From contig NZ_CP159290.1 of the NCBI RefSeq assembly GCF_040448685.1, forward strand, positions 4,712,001 through 4,776,000: a DNA stretch of 64,000 nt. The letters are read 5' to 3'. Both the position numbers and the translations under genes were made by a program. Positions 60,058 to 62,217 of the stretch are shown piece after piece. Positions within the stretch are counted from its first letter, which is position 1. Every line of letters starts with the position of its first letter. Under the pieces are notes generated by a model. That model did no database searches. It saw only the letters and a list, made by a program, of their open reading frames with translations, and had not been told where the DNA came from. This DNA comes from Cellulosimicrobium sp. ES-005 (GTDB lineage Bacteria > Actinomycetota > Actinomycetes > Actinomycetales > Cellulomonadaceae).

Positions 60058-60687
60058 TCAGATGACGTACTCGATGAGGAGCGACGGGTCCTCGACGGCG
60101 TCCCGCGCCGCGGGCGCGCCCGCGGGCATCCGGACCGTCGCCGGGACCCCGACCGCGACCGCGCCGGCCGGCACGTCCTTGACGACGACGGCGTTGGCCC
60201 CCACCTGCACGTCGTCGCCGACCCACACCGGCCCGAGGATCTTCGCCCCCGCCCCGACGACGACGCGGTCCCCGAGCGTCGGGTGCCGCTTGCCGCGCTT
60301 CATCGACCGCCCGCCGAGCGTCGACGTGTGGAAGAGCACGACGTCGTCGCCGACGACGGCCGTCTCGCCCACGACGACCCCCATGCCGTGGTCGATGAAC
60401 AGGCGTCGGCCGATGCGCGCGCCGGGATGGATCTCCACACCGGTCAGCGCGCGCGCCACCTGCGACACGAGACGCGCCGGCAGGCGCAGCAGGGGCTCGC
60501 GCCACATGCGGTGCGCGAGCCGGTAGGCCCACACGGCGTGCACGCCCGGGTACGCCAGCGCGACCTCGAGGCGGCTGCGGGCGGCGGGGTCCCGCCGTCG
60601 GGCCGCCTCGAGGTCCTCGCCGAGCACGCGCGCGAACCGGCGCAGCCGGTAGCCGACCGCGCGGTGGTGGGGTCGAGGGTCGGTCAC
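60058..60687 (-). CDS. cysE: Serine O-acetyltransferase
   Basis: This 209-residue enzyme starts at GTG 60687, one base after the cysK stop. The left-handed beta-helix of hexapeptide repeats contains [20 protein letters not shown] (catalytic His/Asp), [40 protein letters not shown] and [20 protein letters not shown]. It makes O-acetylserine for CysK. The C-terminus ends Ile, as needed for binding into the CysK active site in cysteine synthase complexes. It is the second gene of the cysK-cysE operon. Confidence 0.96.
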
Positions 60688-60688
60688 G

Positions 60689-61624
60689 TCAGTCCAGCAG
60701 GTCGGAGTACAGGATCGTCGAGAGGTAGCGCTCGCCGAAGTCCGGCACGACAGTGACGATGAGCTTGCCCTTGTTCTCGGGGCGCTTGGCGAGCTGGATC
60801 GCGGCCTCGATGGCCGCACCCGACGAGATGCCCACGAGGAGGCCCTCCTCCTTGGCCGCGGCGCGCGCGGTCGCGACCGCGGTCTCGGCGTCGATGTCGA
60901 TGACCTCGTCGTAGACCTCGCGGTCCAGGATGTCGGGCACGAAGTTCGCACCGAGACCCTGGATCTTGTGCGGCCCGGGCTGGCCGCCGTTGAGGATGGG
61001 GGACTCGGCCGGCTCGACCGCGACGATCCTCACCTCGGGCTTGCGCTCCTTGAGCACCTGCCCGACGCCGGAGATCGTGCCGCCGGTGCCGATGCCGGAC
61101 ACGACGATGTCGACCTCGCCGTCCGTGTCGGCCCAGATCTCCTCGGCGGTCGTGCGGCGGTGGACGTCCACGTTCGCCGGGTTGGCGAACTGGCGCGCCA
61201 GGATGGCGCCCGGGCGCTCCGCGGCGATCCGCTCGGCGGCCGCGACGGCCCCCTTCATGCCCTCCGAGCCCGGGGTGAGGACGAGCTCGGCGCCGTAGGC
61301 GCGCAGGAGCGCGCGGCGCTCCTTCGACATGGTCTCCGGCATGGCGAGCACGACGTTGTAGCCGCGGGCCGCGCCGACCCACGCCAGCGCGATGCCGGTG
61401 TTGCCCGACGTGCCCTCGACGATCGTCCCACCCGGCTGGAGCTCGCCCGACGCCTCGGCGGCATCGATGATCGAGACGCCGATGCGGTCCTTGACCGAGT
61501 TCGCCGGGTTGTAGAACTCGAGCTTCGCGACGACCGTGGCCTCGAGGCCCTCGGTGAGCCGGTTCAGGCGCACGAGGGGCGTGTTGCCGATGAGCTTCGT
61601 GGCGTCGTCGTAGATGCGTGCCAT
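60689..61624 (-). CDS. cysK: Cysteine synthase A (O-acetylserine sulfhydrylase)
   Basis: This 311-residue PLP enzyme starts at ATG 61624 after GAGGAAG. It has [12 protein letters not shown], the PLP-Lys in [24 protein letters not shown], phosphate loop [10 protein letters not shown] and [11 protein letters not shown]. It makes cysteine from O-acetylserine and sulfide. It is preceded by a 283-bp leader that contains a Cys-codon-rich mini-gene (61825-61908) and hairpins, so it is likely controlled by cysteine supply. It is followed directly by cysE. Confidence 0.97.
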
Positions 61625-61642
61625 GTCTTCCTCTTCTGTCGA

Positions 61643-61735
61643 CGGCTCGGGGTGAGCCGGGGTGGGGGTACCGATCAGGGGACGTGGGCCGACGCGGTCC
61701 GTGACCAGGATGCCCAGCGTCTCGCGGGGACGCTG
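61643..61735 (-). promoter_or_regulatory. Hairpins in the cysK leader between the leader peptide and cysK
   Basis: Two small perfect hairpins lie in the 200-bp gap: CGGCTC/GAGCCG (61643-61659, ending about 19 nt before the ATG, near the ribosome binding site) and CAGCGTC/GACGCTG (61715-61735). Either could change with ribosome position on the leader ORF. Neither is a classical terminator with a U-tract. Confidence 0.4.
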
Positions 61736-61824
61736 CGGGCGCACGGGCGCGACGGCGGGGGTGGGCTCGTGCGGACGGGGCGGCCTGATGCGGCGCGGAG
61801 CTGCGCGGGGTCGGCGGCGGGTCG

Positions 61825-61908
61825 TCAGCGACAGCCGAGACAGCGACAACAGGAGACGCGCGACACGGCGCGGTGCAGCGGTGCGGGACGCGCGATCGTC
61901 GCGGTCAT
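61825..61908 (-). CDS. Cysteine-codon leader peptide of the cysK-cysE operon
   Basis: This 27-codon ORF starts at ATG 61908 with a strong AGGAGGAGCGAGGA just upstream and ends at TGA 61825-61827. The peptide ends SCCRCLGCR, with four Cys in its last eight residues. All four Cys codons are TGT, whereas annotated genes here overwhelmingly use TGC. It lies 200 nt before cysK and downstream of a plausible promoter (61981-62010). Cys-rich short ORFs upstream of cysteine genes act as cysteine-responsive attenuators in mycobacteria, so this is most likely a stalling leader peptide sensing charged tRNA-Cys. It is too short to be found by normal gene calling. Confidence 0.72.
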
Positions 61909-61980
61909 TCCTCGCTCCTCCTGGTCGGTCGCGCCGCGGGTGCCCGACGGTCCGGGCGTGCGGGCAGCGCGTGTGCCCCG

Positions 61981-62010
61981 AGGCTATCGGTCCGCGTCGG
62001 GACCCTGCAA
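61981..62010 (-). promoter_or_regulatory. Promoter of the cysK-cysE operon
   Basis: -35 TTGCAG (62005-62010) and -10 TAGCCT (61981-61986) are spaced 18 bp apart on the minus strand. The predicted start near 61974 gives a leader of about 350 nt containing the Cys leader peptide. Confidence 0.55.
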
Positions 62011-62146
62011 CGCCGTCCACGAGACGGTCGTCCGGCCCGTGGACGGTCGTGTGCGGGCGAGACGACGACGGGCGCCCCGCCGGCCTGGCGGGACGCCCGT
62101 CGTGACGTGCGGGAGCGACGGTCGGGACGGAGCCCGAGCAGTCCGG

Positions 62147-62217
62147 AGCGGGCGACGGGAATCGAACCCGCGTAGCCAGTTTGGAAGACTGGGGCTCTAC
62201 CATTGAGCTACGCCCGC
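62147..62217 (-). tRNA. tRNA-Gly (anticodon TCC)
   Basis: Cloverleaf on the minus strand: acceptor GCGGGCG/CGCCCGC, D-arm AGCTCAATGGTAGAGC, anticodon stem-loop CAGTCTTCCAAACTG with TCC, T-arm GGGTTCGATTCCC. Length 71 nt. CCA is not encoded. Confidence 0.95.

Follow-up and report, generated by a model that had tools for sequence, protein, structure and literature searches.

Leaderless polycysteine attenuators were reportedly shown in Mycobacterium smegmatis by Canestrari et al. in 2020. Candidate cysteine leader peptides without terminators were described from Mycobacterium, P. acnes and B. longum by Seliverstov et al. (2005; PMC1262725), who proposed Rho as the factor involved. In E. coli toiL-topAI, ribosome stalling within an upstream open reading frame (ORF) determines premature Rho-dependent termination (PMC12121999). 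A cysteine leader peptide located before cysteine genes in Actinobacteria is already a known kind of switch. In this study, we consider a short ORF ending in cysteine (Cys) codons that lies upstream of the cysteine genes cysK and cysE in a stretch of 64,000 nucleotides (nt) of Cellulosimicrobium sp. ES-005 (contig NZ_CP159290.1, positions 4,712,001 to 4,776,000), hereafter the window. Coordinates without a contig name refer to the window, and every feature given there lies on the minus strand. On the basis of the comparisons described below, we consider it likely that this leader is translated, senses cysteine and controls cysK-cysE as a ribosome-mediated cysteine attenuator.

The leader ORF (61825-61908) consists of 27 codons and a TGA stop codon. 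Its Cys-rich end and stop, TCC TGT TGT CGC TGT CTC GGC TGT CGC TGA (61825-61854), hold all four of its Cys codons, and each of them is TGT (61849-61851, 61846-61848, 61840-61842 and 61831-61833). A Shine-Dalgarno sequence, AGGAGG (61917-61922), is located 8 nt upstream of the ATG. Our re-reading of these positions agrees with the original prediction in the ORF, its strand, its translation, the strong Shine-Dalgarno sequence and the four TGT codons. An untranslated spacer of 200 nt (61625-61824), which is rich in C and poor in G and represents a possible Rho-loading region, separates the leader from cysK, and the Shine-Dalgarno-like AGAGGA of cysK is found at 61629-61634. The gene cysK, encoding cysteine synthase A, occupies 60689-61624 including the stop codon (TIGR01139, 450.8 bits against a cut-off of 350.95). 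The gene cysE, encoding serine O-acetyltransferase, begins with GTG one base past the cysK stop codon and extends over 60058-60687, again including the stop (TIGR01172, 233.4 bits against a cut-off of 210.65). The locus therefore shows what is expected of a cysteine leader peptide, namely Cys codons near the stop of a short ORF ahead of a cysteine-pathway gene.

We compared genomes of the family, 17 of them from the genus Cellulosimicrobium. A cysK search was positive in 146 of 150 family genomes at E <= 1e-120 and returned 148 places, 147 of which were examined; the omitted one is the second copy in genome G086. A Cys-ending leader ORF was found upstream of cysK in 143 of the 147 places, that is, in 17/17 within the genus and in 126/130 elsewhere in the family. 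The finder was run at a loose setting, which demanded a short upstream ORF with at least two Cys among the last 12 residues, and at this setting it also returned ORFs on 27 of 147 reverse strands and in 30 of 441 dinucleotide shuffles. When the ORF also had to be preceded by 4 or more bases matching a Shine-Dalgarno sequence, the counts were 140/147 for the leaders compared with 13/147 and 5/441 for the same two controls. Conservation of the leader ORF beyond chance is confirmed. At the cbs-like paralogue loci (L020-L032), no Cys leader was seen in 12 of 13, and the anchor was not located in L032.

All 17 genomes of the genus carry the leader ahead of cysK with the same Shine-Dalgarno sequence, frame and TGA, and GGAGGAGCGAGGAATG is found in each of them. 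The leader thus has its own Shine-Dalgarno sequence, as had been claimed, and the leaderless start of the mycobacterial polycysteine attenuators was not found here. The number of Cys codons is three in two members, five in one and four in the remainder. Sixteen members have leaders of equal length; among these, the Cys-rich end is invariant at 25 of its 30 nt and codons 1-18 at 28 of 54, and the synonymous positions of the Cys-rich end are therefore fixed as well. It had been proposed that an alignment of relatives should keep the ORF while its flanks drift, and this was borne out: start, frame, stop and Cys-rich end are retained in 17/17, and the 60 nt past the leader stop hold 2 invariant positions (ungapped; 16 of the 17 sequences). 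Between genera, the N-terminal half of the leader varies freely and the Cys-rich end and the stop are retained.

Outside the genus, the conserved end takes a more specific form. The leader terminates as TGT CNN TAG nGCG in 119 of 126 cases and as exactly TGT CNN TAG AGCG in 113, and the letters TGTCnnTAGAGCG are conserved across the stop codon in 113 of the 126. The CNN codon specifies Leu, Arg, Pro, His or Gln; that is, the letters are kept and the amino acids are not. The G of the TAG opens the 5′ arm of a stem, GAGCG followed by variable bases, and the 3′ arm ends in CGCTC. Of 113 loci, 107 have a CGCTC at a distance of 20-130 nt downstream, whereas reading that stretch in reverse gives one in 67 of the 113. 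To keep the pairing from choosing its own 3′ arm, the stem was evaluated at loci with a single CGCTC. At such loci, the inner stem bases pair with their own 5′ arm at a mean of 3.25 positions and with the arms of other genera at 1.71, and in a permutation of 63 of the 66 loci with one CGCTC (34 genus-by-arm combinations), the observed total was reached in 0 of 20000 trials. A covariation alignment of 27 single-CGCTC sequences, one per genus and arm type and with a few 3′ arms misaligned, gave a score of 0.300 compared with 0.152 (standard deviation 0.020) for shuffled and at most 0.131 for slid alignments, and 91.8% of its stem cells are paired compared with 83.5% after shuffling. Furthermore, when 297 genomes of the order were searched for the motif together with the first stem bases, 25 of them, from two families, gave exact matches, always before a cysK-type start, and the reversed control pattern has matches in 3 of the order's genomes. 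A search by cysK similarity gave 80 named relatives, of which 17 contain the exact end motif and 63 are without it; the 17 belong to Cellulomonas, Actinotalea, Oerskovia, Myceligenerans, Demequina and another actinobacterium. No Rfam match to the stop-anchored stem was obtained at the 14 loci searched.

Cysteine has two codons, and attenuators sense amino-acid shortage via codon choice. The reason for a synonymous choice in attenuators is usually blurred by the presence of several tRNAs. In the window, TGT is rare: 23 gene-like ORFs contain 92 Cys codons, 8 of them TGT. The use of rare codons, which might make the ribosome more sensitive, is borne out in a narrower form, for one position: outside the genus, 125 of 126 cysK leaders have TGT as their last Cys codon, whereas the non-terminal Cys codons of these leaders are mostly TGC (224 TGC, 133 TGT). 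The 17 leaders of the genus have TGT for the last Cys in 15 cases and TGC in 2. A tRNA pattern search of the window's own genome returned two tRNA-Cys genes, both with the anticodon GCA, although a differently shaped tRNA-Cys is possible. Because both genes have this anticodon, a separate rare tRNA does not seem to lie behind the choice of TGT. A single tRNA-Cys anticodon combined with a terminal TGT bias makes a wobble effect on sensing directly testable. In the same genome, a cluster of tRNA-Gly, tRNA-Cys and tRNA-Val occurs twice in tandem (C1, approximately 2193000-2193700).

The terminal TGT of the cysK leaders could in part follow from the end motif, which contains that T. However, a second kind of leader, which is without the motif, follows the same rule and has TGT as its last Cys codon in 21 of 21 cases. 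In the window's own genome, this second Cys leader ORF, MTTAARTLLVTSRHGMPACAHTCLSCCR, is located at C1 4298158-4298244 (minus strand of locus L295, 12159-12245), 157 nt before a gene of the nitrite/sulfite-reductase family that is followed by two PAPS-reductase-family genes. The reductase gene scores below every NCBIfam cut-off, and the label sulfite reductase therefore rests on the neighboring genes. The second leader looks leaderless because a TATCGT element ends 7 nt before its ATG and no Shine-Dalgarno sequence was found. The family survey listed 49 places, and 30 loci around the reductase gene were read; a leader of the second type is present in 21 and absent from 9. A stem after this leader is not claimed: the letters past the stop look conserved, and the helix scores 18.1 compared with 17.8 for shuffled sequences. 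Two nitrite/sulfite reductase homologues (G035:C1:672116-673780 and G031:C1:2297199-2298866) contain one in-frame TAG each.

The spacer between leader and cysK has a composition that would suit Rho. C exceeds G in 143 of 143 cysK-leader spacers, and in 142 of them the excess is larger than in the locus's own region upstream of the leader; the mean of C minus G is 0.196 in the spacers and 0.030 upstream. When every 78-nt stretch on either strand of the window is ranked by C minus G, the best one in the spacer (61745-61822) stands at the 99.96th percentile. The composition described for Rho loading, which is C-rich, G-poor and untranslated, is thus found in the spacer, and a rho gene is present in the genome (642 bits, cut-off 509). 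No terminator-like site was found in 61500-62200, and an intrinsic terminator was rejected for this region. Because the spacer combines a Rho-loading composition with the lack of a terminator, we favor Rho as the terminating factor and give Rho-dependent termination in the spacer slightly less than an even chance.

The original prediction of a spacer with hairpins stands in part. A small hairpin, CGGCTC-ACCCC-GAGCCG (61643-61659), is located just 5′ of the cysK Shine-Dalgarno sequence, and its GGCTC/GAGCC is conserved in 17/17 genus members. A structured spacer is not supported, and a structured leader RNA was rejected, since shuffles fold about as well as the leader RNA (z score 0.13). Tests of small hairpins, pairing and stalled ribosomes were performed on 140 of the 143 loci with a leader; in the 3 that were dropped, the annotated ATG did not lie where it was expected. 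Small hairpins 17-21 nt before the cysK start are present in 44% of these loci and in 10% of shuffles, and three windows further upstream show no excess over shuffles. These hairpins are rich in G+C, and their stem letters differ between genera. In the window, no T run follows the small hairpin in front of cysK.

Translation of the leader, stalling, the cysteine response, Rho as the terminator and the role of the stem are what we infer from the sequence, and together they suggest the following mechanism. The leader, led by its Shine-Dalgarno sequence, would be translated as the RNA emerges. When Cys-tRNA is ample, the ribosome would pass the terminal Cys codons, terminate and leave, the C-rich, G-poor spacer would be open to Rho, and transcription would stop before cysK. 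Under a shortage of Cys-tRNA, the ribosome would stall at the terminal UGU codons, RNA polymerase would escape Rho, and cysK-cysE would be made. Given the usual footprint, a ribosome held at the final UGU would extend over the stop codon and the first bases of the stem. Stalling would therefore also block the 5′ arm of the stop-anchored stem in most of the family's other genera, and for this reason we suggest that the stem is a switch in these relatives, formed only once the ribosome has left; Cellulosimicrobium would have lost this stem.

Several observations weigh against this mechanism or parts of it. The Cellulosimicrobium leader ends in TGA and has neither the TAG end motif nor the stop-anchored stem. 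Exact TGTCNNTAGAGCG is absent from the window's own genome, where one-mismatch places number 19 compared with 48 for the reversed pattern, and none of them is at the cysK leader. The stem and the TAG are also missing from seven other leaders outside the genus. The leader of the window's genus, with its TGA and without motif and stem, is therefore read as a derived form, and because of these absences the stem and the TAG should not be considered essential to the basic switch. Two of five covariation measures are no better than shuffles: pairs changed on both sides number 4 compared with 3.1, and further pair types 10 compared with 9.5. Four cysK places are without a leader, all in genus g9, where the genomes are 65-93% complete. 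Finally, richness in C is compatible with Rho loading and is not proof of it.

The main rival is translational attenuation, in which the cysK ribosome-binding site is masked by RNA structure until a ribosome stalls on the Cys codons and exposes it. Two papers cite such attenuation as published for cysteine genes of M. smegmatis (PMC13236596, PMC9031893). In the consensus fold of the genus, the Cys-codon region pairs with the leader Shine-Dalgarno sequence and with a stretch by the cysK Shine-Dalgarno sequence, but the helices are nearly invariant and hence show no covariation. Moreover, shuffled partners pair with the Cys region as well as either Shine-Dalgarno sequence does (mean z 0.30 and 0.33; in the genus 0.0 and -0.5). 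In the genus, placing a ribosome on the first Cys codon opens the cysK binding site slightly (0.59 compared with 0.53), yet a control stall opens it nearly as much (0.57), and over the 140 loci the unpaired probability of the site is 0.551 free, 0.558 with the ribosome at the first Cys codon, 0.543 at the last and 0.554 for the control. Two specific candidates gained no support: occlusion of the cysK binding site, where complementarity by eye extends over 11 of 13 positions and shuffled partners pair equally well, and self-occlusion of the leader Shine-Dalgarno sequence, which appears in the genus consensus fold and does not rise above shuffles. These folding tests are weak evidence against occlusion of the binding site; it stays the main rival, and we regard it as unlikely.

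Attenuation of the trp type, with an intrinsic terminator before cysK, might be suggested by the stem that follows the Cys codons in most other genera and by the T-run terminator-like sites in three Anaerolineales cysK leaders. However, the leader region of the window contains no terminator-like site and its small pre-cysK hairpin is without a T run, and this explanation appears very unlikely. It is similarly hard to believe that the ORF encodes a functional Cys-rich micropeptide rather than a sensor: the clear Shine-Dalgarno sequence and the conserved frame would agree with such a function, whereas the N-terminal half is free to vary, only the Cys-rich end and the stop are kept between genera, the last codons do not vary at synonymous positions within the genus, and neither the cysK leader peptide nor the second leader peptide matches any NCBIfam family. 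A DNA operator or another nucleotide motif lying in a reading frame by chance would fit the conservation of TGTCnnTAGAGCG as letters over the stop in the 113 leaders outside the genus, but it is the least credible explanation, given that the genus without the motif still keeps a Cys-ending ORF, that the covarying arms, pairing as RNA or DNA, stand at variable distances, unlike a fixed operator, and that the multiple upstream Cys codons would be unexplained.

Upstream of the leader, we observed by eye a putative −35 element, TTGCAG (62005-62010), and a putative −10 element, TAGCCT, of the form TAnnnT (61981-61986), separated by 18 nt. The promoter that had been claimed for this region is thus visible by eye, although a strict sigma-70 scan of the leader region finds none. 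The putative elements would place the transcript start at approximately 61974, with a presumed 5′ leader of approximately 65 nt. Because this promoter-like element ends approximately 73 nt ahead of the ATG, at its −10, the leader ORF does not appear to be leaderless. A tRNA gene is located directly upstream of the promoter region (62147-62217; Rfam tRNA, 71.6 bits), and tRNAs alone exceeded the Rfam gathering score when the window region and 14 family loci were submitted.

Short Cys ORFs with TGT as the last Cys codon also occur within approximately 250 nt before cysK in Anaerolineales and related Chloroflexi (L096, L099, L103, L104 and L110). In several of them, a G+C-rich stem overlapping the stop can be seen by eye, and T-run terminator-like sites are present on the sense strand in the three cysK leaders scanned (L096, L104 and L110). 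A classical cysteine attenuator is possible in those Chloroflexi, as judged from these features. In Streptomyces, one paper annotates the S. lividans peptide MSTTSDRTPATEATTTPGARCMCRRMCAF before metNIQ as a methionine leader (PMC8079986). Three Cys residues lie close to the end of MSTTSDRTPATEATTTPGARCMCRRMCAF, and the peptide might also act as a cysteine sensor.

Neither a cysK leader in this family nor the terminal-TGT rule or the stop-anchored stem turned up in our searches of the open-licence literature. The Shine-Dalgarno-led form, the stop-anchored stem, the terminal-TGT rule and the family-wide spread are apparently new. We tentatively raise the possibility, which we consider rather doubtful at present, that they define a distinct attenuator class of this family and a neighbor, in which the single terminal UGU would be decisive because wobble decoding by the one kind of tRNA-Cys would be slowest there when charging falls, a stem opened by the stop codon two triplets further on would form after the ribosome has left, Rho would act at a C-rich spacer, and a leaderless sister switch with the same UGU rule would act on sulfite reduction. 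Both the rule on the terminal UGU and the stem at the stop codon are sharply defined and open to testing. One genome offers both a Shine-Dalgarno-led and a leaderless-looking Cys leader, and its relatives supply a covarying stem fixed to a stop codon. Moreover, high-G+C bacteria have few intrinsic terminators, and the locus is a candidate for attenuation by Rho in this group.

Compared with the candidates of Seliverstov et al. (PMC1262725), the leader considered here is similar in its Cys codons near the stop, its position upstream of a cysteine gene and the lack of a terminator. It differs in that the genes are cysK-cysE, the family is another one, and a stop-anchored covarying stem is present in most genera, although not in the window's own. 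With toiL-topAI (PMC12121999), the locus would share the coupling of stalling in an upstream ORF to Rho-dependent control, which is here read from sequence. In toiL, antibiotics are sensed, a binding site is occluded and termination takes place inside the gene, whereas here the signal is presumably Cys-tRNA and the Rho region would be the spacer. The mycobacterial polycysteine attenuators are similar in having Cys codons in a short upstream ORF and in serving several cysteine operons per genome. Unlike them, the cysK leader has a Shine-Dalgarno sequence, a presumed 5′ leader and interrupted Cys codons, and the folding tests, weak as they are, gave no sign of binding-site occlusion here. The second leader of the same genome looks leaderless.
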